Assembly: GCA_036172455.1 (NCBI GenBank)
Contig: JAXKVY010000003.1
Location: forward strand, 124,001-188,000
Length of the DNA stretch: 64,000 bases
Direction of reading: 5' to 3'
From: Candidatus Izemoplasma sp.
Lineage (GTDB): Bacteria > Bacillota_I > Bacilli_A > Izemoplasmatales > Izemoplasmataceae
Part shown: in pieces, positions 9,052 to 53,104 of the stretch
Numbering within the stretch: position 1 is the first letter of the stretch
Layout of the letters: the number at the start of each line of letters is the position of its first letter
Translations under genes and position numbers: made by a program
The notes under the pieces: model-generated
Told to the model about the DNA's origin: nothing
The model's database searches: none
What the model saw: only the letters and a program-made list of their open reading frames with translations

Positions 9052-10792
9052 ATATGCGTTCTCCTTTTGTATAGCAAGTGTGGAGTAAGTCATGTGCTTT
9101 TTCCCCGTATGGATCGCCAAGAAAATCTTGATATAGTTTTAATACCATCTCATTTTCATGACTCTTACGTCTAGGCATTGATTTATCAATCTCATAAATG
9201 GCTTTTTGACGTGCTTCAATAATAGACATATCTCCATGATGATAAGGTTGTCCACCACCACCGATACAACCACCAGGACAAGCCATGATTTCAATTGCAT
9301 GATAATCAACATTACCAGCTTTAATTTCTTCTAATAAGTGTCTTGCATTACCAAGACCATGAGCAATACCAATTTTTAAGTCTAAATCATTGATTGTAAT
9401 AGTTGCTTCTCTAATGCCTTCCATACCACGTAACTCTTGGAAATCAATACGTTCTAGATTATCCCCAGTCAATAACTCGTACGCTGTTCGTGCAGCAGCT
9501 TCAATGACACCACCTGTCGTACCAAATATAGCAGCAGCACCCGTTGATTCTCCTAAGATATTATCAAATTCACCATCTGGTAACTTCTCAAATTCAATCC
9601 CAGCTTCTTTAATCATATGACCAAATTCACGGGTTGATAAGGTGTAATCCACATTATGTAGATTTTCTTTTGATAATTCAGGACGTGCACTTTCAGCTTT
9701 TTTTGCCACACAAGGCATAATTGAGACAACTTTGATTTGCTTACTTGGTAAGTGTATCTTTTCAGCATAATAGGTTTTTGCAATCGCCCCAACCATGGTT
9801 TGTGGAGACTTGCACGTGGATGGCACATCTAACATTTCAGGGAACTGATGTTCAATAAATTTAACCCACGCTGGACAACAACTCGTTAACATTGGTAAGG
9901 TGCCACCGTGTTCAATCCGGTGAACCAATTCTCTAGCTTCTTCCATAATGGTTAAATCTGCGCCAAAGTTGGTATCAAATACGGCATCAAATCCAAGCCG
10001 TCTTAAGGCTGTAACAATTTTGCCTGTTGAAATACTGCCTGGGTCCATCCCAAACATTTCACCTAAAGCAACCCGCACAGCTGGGGCAACTTGTACAACC
10101 ATATGATAATTTTTATTCGCAAGCCGTTTCCATACCCGTGGGACATCGTTACGTTCTGTTAATGCTCCTGTAGGGCAGACTGCCACACATTGTCCGCAAT
10201 AGGTACATGATGTATCAGCCATATCTAAGTTAAACGCTGGTGCGACAACCGCATCAAAACCACGTCTTAACCCACTTAATACTCCAACAGTTTGAACCTC
10301 GTTACACATTGTTTCACAACGTCGACACATGACACATTTATTCGGATCTTTCACTATTGATTTGCTCGACTGATCAATCGAATAGGCCATTTTTTCACCT
10401 GTAAATGAGATTTCGCGAATATTGAGTTCCTCCGCAAGGGATTGTAATTCACAGGTTAAGTTTTTTGTACAAGTTAAACATTCAAACGGATGATTACTTA
10501 ATAATAATTCAAGATTATTTCGACGCGAATTAATCGCACGAATACTATCGGTTTTAATATGCATACCTTCATAGACTTTTTCAGCACAACTAGGTACCAA
10601 AGCTTGACGGTTTTCAACTTCAACAACACACACGCGGCATGATGCGACTTTATTGACAATACCGTATTCTTCTAAATTTAAATGGCAGAGTGTTGGTATT
10701 TTAATGCCTGCTTGATCACATGCATCAAGCACAGTAGTGCCTTTTTTTACCATCATTGGTCTACCATTGACATGGATATTTACTGTATTCAT
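9050..10792 (-). CDS. hydA: NADH-linked [FeFe] hydrogenase catalytic subunit
   Basis: Catalytic subunit (580 residues) of a multimeric, probably electron-bifurcating hydrogenase that makes H2 during fermentation. In order: an N-terminal plant-type 2Fe-2S domain (about 1-75), a His-ligated 4Fe-4S site in HPFECLTCTKNLTC, two 4Fe-4S motifs (CVMCRRCETMC and CTYCGQCVAVCP) and the H-cluster domain. All three H-cluster signatures are present: TSCCPAW near residue 303, MPCVAKKAE near 358 and MACPGGCIGGGGQPY near 502. It is the last gene of the four-gene operon at 9050-13149. The maturation genes hydE, hydF and hydG are not in the window. Confidence 0.94.
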   Translation of the reverse strand: MNTVNIHVNGRPMMVKKGTTVLDACDQAGIKIPTLCHLNLEEYGIVNKVASCRVCVVEVENRQALVPSCAEKVYEGMHIKTDSIRAINSRRNNLELLLSNHPFECLTCTKNLTCELQSLAEELNIREISFTGEKMAYSIDQSSKSIVKDPNKCVMCRRCETMCNEVQTVGVLSGLRRGFDAVVAPAFNLDMADTSCTYCGQCVAVCPTGALTERNDVPRVWKRLANKNYHMVVQVAPAVRVALGEMFGMDPGSISTGKIVTALRRLGFDAVFDTNFGADLTIMEEARELVHRIEHGGTLPMLTSCCPAWVKFIEHQFPEMLDVPSTCKSPQTMVGAIAKTYYAEKIHLPSKQIKVVSIMPCVAKKAESARPELSKENLHNVDYTLSTREFGHMIKEAGIEFEKLPDGEFDNILGESTGAAAIFGTTGGVIEAAARTAYELLTGDNLERIDFQELRGMEGIREATITINDLDLKIGIAHGLGNARHLLEEIKAGNVDYHAIEIMACPGGCIGGGGQPYHHGDMSIIEARQKAIYEIDKSMPRRKSHENEMVLKLYQDFLGDPYGEKAHDLLHTCYTKGERI

Positions 10793-48911: not shown

Positions 48912-49068
48912 GATTAACGCTCCTCATCTTAATATTATTATAAGCAATTTCTCCTAAAAACACCAAAATAATTCGATATTTTATATTTCGAAGTAAAATT
49001 CACAAAAAATTCATATGCGCTTGTTATAATAAAGATAGAAAGAAAAATTAAAAGGAGAGGTGTTATTA

Positions 49069-51900
49069 ATGAAGAAATTATTAGGGTTATTTCTAATTGG
49101 GCTCATGGTTTTATCGTTATCGGCATGTGGTATGTTTTCTGAAGAGGATGTCGATGATATTGTGAACTGTGTAGAAAACCCTGATGATCCATCGTGTGAA
49201 GAAGTCATCCCAGATGACGATGACGACCGCACGGCAGAAGAAATTTTGATTGATACAATGATCGAAAACTATAATGTTTCCGGTGATTTAACATTTTTAT
49301 CTACTGCGATTAATTCTATGGATTTCAGTAGTGCATTAGGGCAAACGACTTCTTTATACCTAGAGGTGACTGAAGATATTGATGAAACGCATTATATCGA
49401 CGCAGTCATTACTGATAAATTTGTGGACAATAATGGCATGATGATATTAGAGCGCCATGTGGTCTTAGACATAGATGGTGAAGAAAGTATCGATATTACC
49501 ATGTACTTTGAAGAAGTTGATATGGGCGTTCATGTCTATGTTGAAAGAGCACCAATTGTGGCAGAACTTGATCAAACTGCGCAAAATGAACTCGCGTGGA
49601 TGGGCTTTGAATCTGAGTATGTCTTATTCCAATTTGATGATACCATTGAAAACATGATTCAAATTGAAATGATGAAAGATATTTTAGCCGATATGTTCTT
49701 TGATGATGTTGGACATGATGTCTTTGTTAACGCACAAGCTGAGATAGATAATGCCTTAGGCATTACATCCGCAACCTATAATGTTAACTTAGATGACTTA
49801 TTCACAACCCTTGTCATCAATGAAGATGTGGCAGGGTTTGAAACCAAGTTACAAGCAATTGACTATGACGGTTTATTGCTGGCGATTGACCAGGCAAATG
49901 TCGCACCAATGATTGTCAATTTACTCAATCAAATCGATGCGAGTGATGGAACAGTGAACGGTACTGTGGGAAGCATTACTATTTCGGACGCAGCCAATAT
50001 ATTAACCAATGACACATTAACTAACTACGGAACTGAGTATTGGCTAAACAATTTAACCCCCCAAGAAATGACAGACTTTAAAGAATTGGTGGTTAAACCA
50101 ACCATTGAACAAAACATGTTTATGTTCTTAACGAGTGAATTAACCCACGTGAATGAGATAGAAGCAGCGGTACTCACTCTAATCAATAATGATACTGGAG
50201 AGATGGCTTACTATAAAGGCATTGATTCAGATACCTTACTCACGAGTTACCAAGCTGCGACAAACTTTGAAACATGGTTTAATAGTCTTACATCTCAAGA
50301 AGTTGCTGCCTTAGAATGGGCTGCAATGCAAGAAGATGATGGGACAAATGATAATTATTATCAAGATATGGTTTGGGACGCAAGTGACATAGCGAATCAA
50401 AAAGAAGATATCATTGCATATTTAACCACACATCAAACTGCGCTTGAAGCGTTATCGCATAATGGTGAAGTCATTGATGTCAATGCGATGTTAAATGATT
50501 TAAACACAGGTGGCTTAACGTTATTCTTACAAAACTTAAGTGTAACAGATATTGAAATATTAGTTGAAGGCTATGTTTATCCTAAACTAGAAACACTGAT
50601 GACATCGATTAACAATAATACCGTCTTAGAAGGTGTGATTGAGATTATTTGGGGTGACCCTCATATTGAAGAAGCTGTCAGACAAATTCCACACTTTGAT
50701 GGTGAATTATGGCTAACCAATATCCAACAAATTGATCCCGACGCGCTTCAAACAGAAACCTTAAATGTTGACAGTTTATTGCTTGCGATGCGTGCTGGAC
50801 AAACGACCTTTGATGCGTATGTGACATCATTAAGTACAACGGCACCAAATATGGCACTGTTGCTCGCACCATTTAGTCCAACTGTCCTTTACTTAGAACA
50901 ATACAGTGACTATGGTGACGATATTGAATATGCCTTGAATAATTTAGATCAATTTGATCCTTATCTTAATTTAGAGTATTATTTAAATCATGAGGATATG
51001 ACTGGTACATTATCACGGACTGAGGAGACAACGTTACTTGTTGAAATGGATTTGACACCATCAATGTATGAAAGTGTCTATACCGAATTCGTCGAAGATG
51101 CCTATACTTATCTCAGTGGCTTTAAAACATTGCCAGTTGATATGATCAATGATTATACATCTCACTTAGAATGTCAAGACGGTGCACCTGATACGTGTGA
51201 TGATATCATGCCATATACAGAAGCGATGAATGAATTATCAGGACTCGCACCTATTGATATGACAATGGAATATGATCCAAACAATATTAATCGTATGGAC
51301 ATGATGATTGATTTAACCACATTCGCAGATCAACTTGTGACAGATAACTATAATGATATTTCAAGTGATATTGAATTCACCCCTGACACGAAAAATGATA
51401 TTTTTACAGGTGTGAATGAATTTACAATCAATATAACCATGACAGACAGTGCGACTGTTACATTACCAACAGAGTTAGATGATGCGAACGCATTACTCAC
51501 AGAACATGCTAAACTCAATCTGATTTGGGAAGTTGAAAGTTTACTATATGATATTGAAATGTATGATATGTCGAACAATACAGATTTAGCAGCCATTGTG
51601 AATACGGCAAGAACGCTAGATCAATTTGATTACTGGGTTGAGACCAGCGCGGTGATCGATGACTCTAAATCAACTGTTACTTGGGATGGTACTGAGTATA
51701 CCGTTGAATTACACTGGGTAGGTGGCGATGACGCAACAGATGTCTTAGTCTTTACAGAATCAATTAGTGAAAGTGATTTAGCATCTTACTTAACTAATGG
51801 AGAAATCACCACAGAAGCTGATTATGATGCCTTAATTGCGCTTATAGATGATGATAATTACAGCTTAACCAAACTGTTAATGTATTACTTCTTTGAATAG
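49069..51900 (+). CDS. Large acidic surface lipoprotein, unknown
   Basis: 943 residues from the ATG at 49069, behind AAAGGAGAGG. The signal peptide ends LSLSAC, giving a lipidated Cys near residue 20. A short acidic linker rich in Asp follows (EEVIPDDDDDRTAEE). The remainder is acidic, rich in Asp, Asn and Thr, with few Lys, and no motif I recognise. Recurrent phrases such as LNNLTPQEMTDF, NSLTSQEVAAL, NLSVTDIEIL and NNLDQFDPYL suggest loosely repeated helical modules. Likely anchored outside the membrane. No domain assignment is possible by eye. Confidence 0.75.
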   Translation: MKKLLGLFLIGLMVLSLSACGMFSEEDVDDIVNCVENPDDPSCEEVIPDDDDDRTAEEILIDTMIENYNVSGDLTFLSTAINSMDFSSALGQTTSLYLEVTEDIDETHYIDAVITDKFVDNNGMMILERHVVLDIDGEESIDITMYFEEVDMGVHVYVERAPIVAELDQTAQNELAWMGFESEYVLFQFDDTIENMIQIEMMKDILADMFFDDVGHDVFVNAQAEIDNALGITSATYNVNLDDLFTTLVINEDVAGFETKLQAIDYDGLLLAIDQANVAPMIVNLLNQIDASDGTVNGTVGSITISDAANILTNDTLTNYGTEYWLNNLTPQEMTDFKELVVKPTIEQNMFMFLTSELTHVNEIEAAVLTLINNDTGEMAYYKGIDSDTLLTSYQAATNFETWFNSLTSQEVAALEWAAMQEDDGTNDNYYQDMVWDASDIANQKEDIIAYLTTHQTALEALSHNGEVIDVNAMLNDLNTGGLTLFLQNLSVTDIEILVEGYVYPKLETLMTSINNNTVLEGVIEIIWGDPHIEEAVRQIPHFDGELWLTNIQQIDPDALQTETLNVDSLLLAMRAGQTTFDAYVTSLSTTAPNMALLLAPFSPTVLYLEQYSDYGDDIEYALNNLDQFDPYLNLEYYLNHEDMTGTLSRTEETTLLVEMDLTPSMYESVYTEFVEDAYTYLSGFKTLPVDMINDYTSHLECQDGAPDTCDDIMPYTEAMNELSGLAPIDMTMEYDPNNINRMDMMIDLTTFADQLVTDNYNDISSDIEFTPDTKNDIFTGVNEFTINITMTDSATVTLPTELDDANALLTEHAKLNLIWEVESLLYDIEMYDMSNNTDLAAIVNTARTLDQFDYWVETSAVIDDSKSTVTWDGTEYTVELHWVGGDDATDVLVFTESISESDLASYLTNGEITTEADYDALIALIDDDNYSLTKLLMYYFFE

Positions 51901-51953: not shown

Positions 51954-51982
51954 TTGTAAACTAATTTAAAATGTATTATAAT
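51954..51982 (+). promoter_or_regulatory. Consensus-like promoter of a small RNA
   Basis: TTGTAA at 51954-51959, a 17-base spacer, then a perfect TATAAT at 51977-51982. The predicted start is around 51988-51990. The nearest coding region downstream on this strand is over 1 kb away, so the promoter serves a non-coding transcript. Confidence 0.8.
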
Positions 51983-51988
51983 ATAAGC

Positions 51989-52090
51989 GTAGGAGAGATC
52001 CTACACTTATCCCTTACATAGCATGGTGAATAATTTATTTATTCACACATCCCCTTCCTTAAGGGCCGCCGAGAGGCGGCTCTTTCCTTT
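51989..52090 (+). ncRNA. Candidate structured small RNA, about 100 nt, undescribed
   Basis: Begins at the predicted start site. Three hairpins in series: GTAGGA-GAGA-TCCTAC (51989-52004), GTGAATAA-TTTAT-TTATTCAC (52026-52046), and a strong 10-base terminator-like stem with a GAGA loop (52061-52084, GCCGCC/GGCGGC core). Two loops are GAGA tetraloops. Single-stranded linkers are C-rich (52011-52015 CCCTT, 52051-52058 CCCCTTCC), complementary to Shine-Dalgarno type purines. CCCTTA (52011-52016) can also pair with TAAGGG (52060-52065), competing with the lower terminator stem. No ORF with a ribosome site lies within. It does not look like 6S, SRP, tmRNA or RNase P RNA. Confidence 0.72.
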
Positions 52091-52103
52091 GGGAGAGATA
52101 ATA

Positions 52104-52130
52104 AAAAAACGGACAATCTGTCCGTTTTTT
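52104..52130. terminator. Bidirectional terminator
   Basis: AAAAAACGGACA and TGTCCGTTTTTT form a 12-base stem with a 3-base loop. It ends the minus-strand gene at 52129 and would stop any read-through from the small RNA. Confidence 0.93.
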
Positions 52131-52872
52131 AGTTTCCTGGTTTTAAATTTAAAGTGTCTGGTACATAGTGCGTGACATAATACAAAATATTCATTGTGAT
52201 AAAAACGGCACTCAAATGGACAAAGACATAGAGTTGATAGAGTGGAAATAACTCTTCAACATTTGTTGGTACGTAGTTAATGAACCAATAATTCGCATCA
52301 AATCCAAGTCTTAATAATATCGCATTGATTAAATAAATCACGACACCGATCATAAATGCGTGTTTATAAACGGTGAGCAAATCGCTATACTCCACACGAT
52401 AATCATAGGCTTTATAATAATATAAAGGAATAAAGATAATAATCATATGAATAAGCATAAAATGATAATATCTAACATTATAGTATGTGTAGCCTAAACT
52501 ATTTGGGAATACAAGAGCCATTAAGCCACCGAGTGTTCCAAAGAAAAAGGCATATTTGAAGACATCTTGCCGGTCAGTCAGTAGTAGCCATATATTTAAA
52601 AAGACGGCAATAGAACAAATATGTAATGGTAGACTTAATCGAGGATAAGTAAAGTTATGAATATGATACGCTACCTCTAAGATAATGAGTGTGATAATAA
52701 GCCCCCGCTTGATTACATCTTCTTTAGTTAAGTCGTGAATCTTTTTGCCAAACAGTATCGCTGTCCCCACAGCGATGACGGCACAAATAACATAAAACAA
52801 ATGATGAATCGTAAACATGGTCGCGGCCTTCGAATAATCAATATCGTGACCAAAAAAACGTTGTATTGACAT
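52129..52872 (-). CDS. TIGR02206/YwaF-type membrane protein, second copy
   Basis: 247 residues, about seven helices. It has the same start pattern (FTIHHLFYVICAVIAVG) and conserved loop LSLPLHICSIAVFL as its family, and is a paralogue of 30824-31564. Monocistronic, with an AAAGGGGG ribosome site. Function unknown. Confidence 0.8.
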   Translation of the reverse strand: MSIQRFFGHDIDYSKAATMFTIHHLFYVICAVIAVGTAILFGKKIHDLTKEDVIKRGLIITLIILEVAYHIHNFTYPRLSLPLHICSIAVFLNIWLLLTDRQDVFKYAFFFGTLGGLMALVFPNSLGYTYYNVRYYHFMLIHMIIIFIPLYYYKAYDYRVEYSDLLTVYKHAFMIGVVIYLINAILLRLGFDANYWFINYVPTNVEELFPLYQLYVFVHLSAVFITMNILYYVTHYVPDTLNLKPGN

Positions 52873-53037: not shown

Positions 53038-53052
53038 ATAAATGTAAAGTTG

Positions 53053-53079
53053 TTAGCACTCAACAAAAGAGAGTGCCAA
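53053..53079. promoter_or_regulatory. CIRCE element (HrcA operator)
   Basis: TTAGCACTC, nine spacer bases, then GAGTGCCAA. The consensus is TTAGCACTC-N9-GAGTGCTAA, so only one base differs. It lies 25 bases before the hsp20 start codon and predicts heat-shock control by HrcA. Confidence 0.93.
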
Positions 53080-53104
53080 CAAAACAAAATAAGGAGGAAT
53101 AACT

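Follow-up and report, generated by a model that had tools for sequence, protein, structure and literature searches.

Does the interval at positions 51954–52130 of the window (the 64,000-nucleotide stretch of Candidatus Izemoplasma DNA analyzed here) encode a small RNA, and what would such an RNA do?

Architecture of the window element

A first-pass annotation had placed a TTGTAA-17-TATAAT promoter at this locus, and it is present in the letters of the + strand (51954–51982), with the −35 box TTGTAA at 51954–51959, a 17-nt spacer, and the −10 box TATAAT at 51977–51982. The predicted RNA that follows on the same strand (51989–52084) has the layout P1-J1-P2-J2-P3, i.e., three hairpins joined by two linkers. 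P1 is a 5′ hairpin, GUAGGA-GAGA-UCCUAC (51989–52004), whose first base is the predicted transcription start; the annotation had correctly set a hairpin at the start, but a 6-nt spacing from the −10 box puts that start at 51989 and not at 51988. The C-rich linker J1 (52005–52022; ACUUAUCCCUUACAUAGC) is predicted from folding to be unpaired. It is followed by the central hairpin P2, AUG-GUGAAUAA...UUAUUCAC-A-CAU (52023–52050), which folding and covariation support and in which the perfect 8-base hairpin described earlier is recovered as eight perfect pairs above an AUG/CAU base. A second C-rich linker, J2 (52051–52060; CCCCUUCCUU), predicted to be unpaired on the same grounds as J1, leads into P3 (52061–52084), a GC-rich, terminator-like 3′ hairpin with a GNRA loop, supported by covariation. 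In the window copy P3 has the ten pairs claimed for it and a GAGA loop, but the sequence behind it is only U/C-rich (TTTCCTTT) and not T-rich as had been stated.

The U/C-rich tail behind P3 (52083–52090, + strand) is a possible first 3′ end, and a perfect inverted repeat with A/T runs (52104–52130), which reads as a bidirectional terminator, a possible second one, so that a transcript of about 100 or about 146 nt is predicted. This terminator is common to the RNA and to a convergent TMEM164/TIGR02206-like gene (52129–52872), which is the next gene; as annotated, no gene lies downstream on the + strand. All three hairpins occur in both the minimum free energy (MFE) and the centroid predictions. 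For the 103-nt form the folding energy is −36.7 kcal/mol (z of −5.25, with 0 of 200 shuffles as good), and the 146-nt form, which extends to the bidirectional terminator, reaches a z of −7.97.

Homologues and distribution

Matches to a 201-nt query were found by blastn in 42 of 61 related genomes, often in several copies each; every match is counted here, and a small number at the weak end cover the terminator only. A pattern scan of named genomes returned 58 loci, mainly from Candidatus Izimaplasma and other Mollicutes/Mycoplasmatota MAGs. The covariance model R1, built from 67 copies, detected the RNA in 57 of the order's 90 genomes (Ca. Izimaplasma/Izemoplasmatales) and also in other families belonging to the class; within the window's own family 47 of 49 genomes were positive, the two lacking the RNA being only 67–69% complete. 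With a second model, R2, built from 41 diverse copies, the RNA was detected in 78 of 395 genomes from the class, Acholeplasmataceae included, and a sample of the phylum gave no match beyond the class. Four weak matches (L161, L162, L169, and L170) were judged false or partial and kept out of the model.

In L145, from Acholeplasmataceae, the RNA is the same one that the named MAG of L054 carries. In genome G176 (1,496,992 bp), which we take to be Acholeplasma laidlawii PG-8A, the RNA is located after topA; G235 and G247 are presumably A. brassicae and A. palmae. Genome G245 holds the RNA twice, about 500 bp apart (L157, 5001–5117 and 5547–5636), with the second copy entering masked sequence. 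In the INPHARED phage and the plasmid collections, the sole match was plasmid CP017949 of strain MO-XQ. Judged by these homologues, the window element is real, far more than chance, and its family has been retained in a broad group comprising Izemoplasma, Acholeplasma, and their Mollicutes-related relatives, some of whose viruses carry it too.

Conservation of the transcription unit and covariation of the stems

Of 91 distinct copies, 89% match the promoter at 9 or more of 12 positions, compared with 6.8% of upstream sequences after shuffling; in 79 of the 91, P1 follows the end of the −10 box at a distance of exactly 6 nt. In the Mollicutes studied, A. laidlawii included, 6 nt is also the commonest spacing between −10 box and start (PMC5138195), and the 5′ end of the RNA should therefore be the first nucleotide of P1.

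In alignment A1, which was made with MAFFT and not fitted to the structure, 97.9% of cells at paired positions form standard pairs, compared with 27–43% in slid controls; both sides have changed at 15 of 25 pairs, with 150 cells altered on both sides. The wider alignment A3 gave 97.6% paired cells and both-side changes at 23 of 25 pairs, values biased toward the fold because A3 was aligned to the covariance model. By individual stem, both sides changed at five of six pairs of P1 among relatives, at seven of the eight upper pairs of P2 across families, and at all eight aligned pairs of P3. The test proposed in the first-pass annotation, conservation and covariation of the stems in relatives, was thus run and yielded compensatory changes in all three.

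While the stems vary (column entropy of 0.88 bits in P1 and 0.56 bits in P3), the linkers stay at about 0.1 bits. J1 averages 0.098 bits per column, with 12 of its 18 columns invariant, and J2 averages 0.093 bits per column. Over the 67 copies the mean unpaired probability is 0.93 for AUCCCUU of J1 and 0.84 for J2, and in distant copies that of the C-rich segments is near 1.0 in nearly all. Conserved single-stranded segments are thus combined with covarying stems, as in trans-acting sRNAs. In distant families the core shrinks to P1-UAUCCCCUA-P2-AUCCCCUU-P3, and four other families have a third C-rich stretch within the P3 loop, e.g., UCCCCU in L236.

The two GAGA-capped hairpins noted earlier exist in the window copy, but within the window's family the loop varies among GNRA sequences, and other families have C-rich loops instead. 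The proposal of two exclusive folds, in which CCCTTA would alternatively pair with TAAGGG, did not hold: TAAGGG occurs in 1 of 67 copies, that of the window, and we rejected such a conformational switch as a feature of the family. As a separate observation, most copies between topA and ftsY have a short CCCUU...AAGGG hairpin and a T run behind P3 (L031, about 9960–10010); this hairpin would form a second terminator, and its GGGA could also pair with AUCCC of J1. A small protein-coding gene was likewise rejected. Peptides starting at the ATG of P2 differ in frame and length (12, 22, 48, and 50 aa), the frame not being kept because loop lengths vary by non-multiples of three.

Promoters and terminator hairpins are common patterns in AT-rich DNA, and 15 promoter-like sites were seen in the 2.4 kb vs. 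13.1 expected; the element could on that account be a functionless chance arrangement. Conservation, covariation, and synteny refute this reading, and we give it practically no weight.

Three gene contexts

The first arrangement, type A, is prfA-prmC-topA-[RNA]-ftsY-ylxM-ffh, found in most Izemoplasma genomes and in other families of the order and class; Acholeplasmataceae have topA-[RNA]-peroxidase-like gene-ftsY or topA-[RNA] followed by other genes. As read from gene order, topA-[RNA]-ftsY is the ancestral locus. In some genomes of the order topA and ftsY adjoin without the RNA, which suggests that it is dispensable in some lineages, although two genomes missed by the fast search do hold a diverged copy. 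The position before ftsY would fit a leader or attenuator that acts in cis on the next gene. However, the RNA has its own terminator and ftsY a separate promoter, the downstream genes differ in other families, and the copies of the window and the phages are followed by a convergent gene or by none. The changing neighbors and the separate promoter contradict a leader of ftsY, and a cis-acting role in general is very hard to credit.

Type B is the context of the window copy, lipoprotein-[RNA]-TMEM164/TIGR02206-like gene-hsp20. The upstream gene encodes a 946-aa lipoprotein-like protein (49060–51900) without a Pfam match, which is kept at type B loci. A CIRCE-like inverted repeat, TTAGCACTC-N9-GAGTGCCAA (53052–53081), spotted by eye only, lies upstream of hsp20 (53105) and clpB (53598) and suggests that these genes may be under HrcA control. 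The earlier proposal that the RNA regulates surface or stress genes is unsupported: it draws only on the lipoprotein gene and hsp20-clpB as neighbors at one locus type, and the ancestral locus is topA-ftsY.

In type C, seen in four viral contigs and several prophages or remnants, two large serine recombinases stand in tandem and the RNA follows the second of them at 57–66 nt, with tRNA-Leu, tRNA-Cys, or tmRNA genes nearby. These phage copies keep the linkers, and their stems are different yet compensated. The phages and prophages with tandem recombinases end at tRNA-Leu, tRNA-Cys, or tmRNA (L109, 11301–11748; L111, 12880–13298; L049, 4978–5735; L054; L047), and tRNA 3′-end fragments are repeated between recombinase and attachment site. 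A phage-like copy without serine recombinase neighbors occurs in the 3.2-Mb chromosome of G138, from another family (L144, 5900–6150); it has no recognizable promoter and is perhaps a remnant.

Each of the four viral contigs, and several prophage remnants as well, has the RNA at this distance behind the second recombinase and near tRNA or tmRNA attachment sites, which raises the question whether it is part of a phage module for integration by serine recombinases that was repeatedly domesticated in chromosomes. The topA-ftsY copy, however, occurs once per genome and in more than one family of the class (several share it), a pattern that indicates vertical inheritance followed by capture by phages rather than the reverse; we consider an origin as a mobile-element RNA highly unlikely. 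No downstream gene is common to all loci, and the three unrelated contexts indicate that function is not tied to one neighbor. With its own promoter and terminator, changing neighbors, and no tie to a downstream gene, the unit again resembles trans-acting sRNAs.

Relation to known RNAs

None of the 4227 families of Rfam 15 matched the window copy or 13 loci with distant copies at gathering score, and permissive searches gave sub-threshold matches only. Membership in RsaE/RoxS (RF01820) was rejected at 18.4 bits (E of 0.77) against a gathering threshold of 79 bits, and 0 of 8 genomes carrying the RNA had an RF01820 match while the B. subtilis control was positive. In the open-access literature on sRNAs of Izemoplasma and Acholeplasma we found no description of the RNA. 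The uORFC-13-1 motif is also a conserved element of Acholeplasma, but it lies upstream of aroF and was named as an upstream-ORF candidate (PMC8632094), whereas the new RNA follows topA.

The RNA nevertheless shares the general design of RsaE/RoxS, an sRNA of about 100 nt found in several Firmicutes hosts, with at least two single-stranded C-rich segments (here J1 and J2), hairpins, and an intrinsic terminator; gene context and hairpin order differ. The C-rich segment of RoxS is a duplicated CCCCUUUGUU, and to our knowledge RsaE/RoxS does not require Hfq. RsaE belongs to a group of S. aureus sRNAs defined by multiple C-rich regions able to pair with Shine-Dalgarno sequences, and RoxS has been shown to contact the ribosome site of ppnKB through a C-rich region (PMC4409812). 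FsrA, CsfG, and the S. aureus Rsa RNAs similarly have several C-rich regions, located in loops or other unpaired stretches, that are thought to pair with ribosome sites (PMC4409812), but lineage and loci differ and no copy tested reaches any Rfam cut-off. The resemblance to C-rich Firmicutes sRNAs thus lies in the standalone unit, the 5′ hairpin at the start, the open C-rich segments, and the terminator hairpin, and the likeness drawn in the first-pass annotation is borne out by the at least two unpaired C-rich regions. Homologues, covariation, and the lack of an Rfam match likewise uphold its view of the element as an undescribed small RNA that stands alone and exposes C-rich linkers. From these comparisons, the RNA is an uncatalogued family within a known kind.

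Function and possible partners

The RNA probably controls other genes through its two exposed C-rich stretches. We consider it moderately probable that it is a standalone sRNA of about 95–145 nt acting in trans through these segments on G-rich mRNA regions. The (A)UCCCCU-like segments would base-pair to such regions, often ribosome-binding sites, and thereby block translation or alter the stability of the target mRNAs. P1 would shield the 5′ end, P2 would act as a spacer between the two C-rich segments, and P3 would serve as terminator and shield the 3′ end. The mode would be Hfq-independent, as in RsaE/RoxS, and the phage copies could allow a prophage to contribute to host regulation or to exploit it.

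Targets were sought in about 880 kb of one genome, the RNA's own. Against its 767 translation-initiation regions, neither J1 (mean of −7.37 vs. −7.88 ± 0.71 for shuffled linkers) nor J2 (−8.40 vs. −8.13 ± 0.72) showed an excess, in a comparison that could detect broad targeting but not a few true targets, since any C-rich sequence pairs with ribosome sites. Contiguous linker matches to the same regions were likewise no better than those of composition-shuffled linkers, and no long or extended antisense sites appeared in this genome apart from the RNA genes themselves. Because the linkers did no better than shuffled ones in this one genome, base pairing to ribosome-binding sites is something we infer. 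The 18-nt J1, moreover, exceeds the usual seeds of sRNAs in its invariant length, which speaks against base pairing and fits contact with a protein equally well.

A protein decoy is accordingly a serious rival, if in our estimate a rather unlikely one: the repeated unpaired (A)UCCCCU motifs would bind and titrate an RNA-binding protein, e.g., of the KH-domain or cold-shock type, in the manner of CsrB with another motif. The recurrence of two to three motifs that hairpins keep open, the long invariant linkers, the lack of target enrichment in the 767 initiation regions, and the retention of both linkers by phages that change the stems would all fit such a role. CsrB/RsmZ-type RNAs also display a repeated motif on hairpins, but the motif here is CCCC and not GGA, each RNA has just two or three of them, and CsrA itself had no match in the genomes of 21 relatives, nor did Hfq. 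A more specific version, in which the class-wide RNA beside topA-ftsY is a multi-motif decoy for a CCCC-binding protein, captured by serine-recombinase phages to interfere with host control, seems to us distinctly unlikely.

Implications

Trans-acting small RNAs usually evolve fast, and RsaE and 6S were named as the only ones known to be common to S. aureus and B. subtilis (PMC4409812). If action in trans through the C-rich segments holds true, a family retained this widely, with strongly covarying stems and two fixed unpaired linkers, would rank among the rare deep-rooted sRNAs, and this in lineages for which few regulators are known and Hfq was not detected. Its occurrence next to phage integrases suggests that the regulator also serves viruses, and the RNA after topA in G176, presumably A. 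laidlawii PG-8A, would make its role testable in a culturable species.
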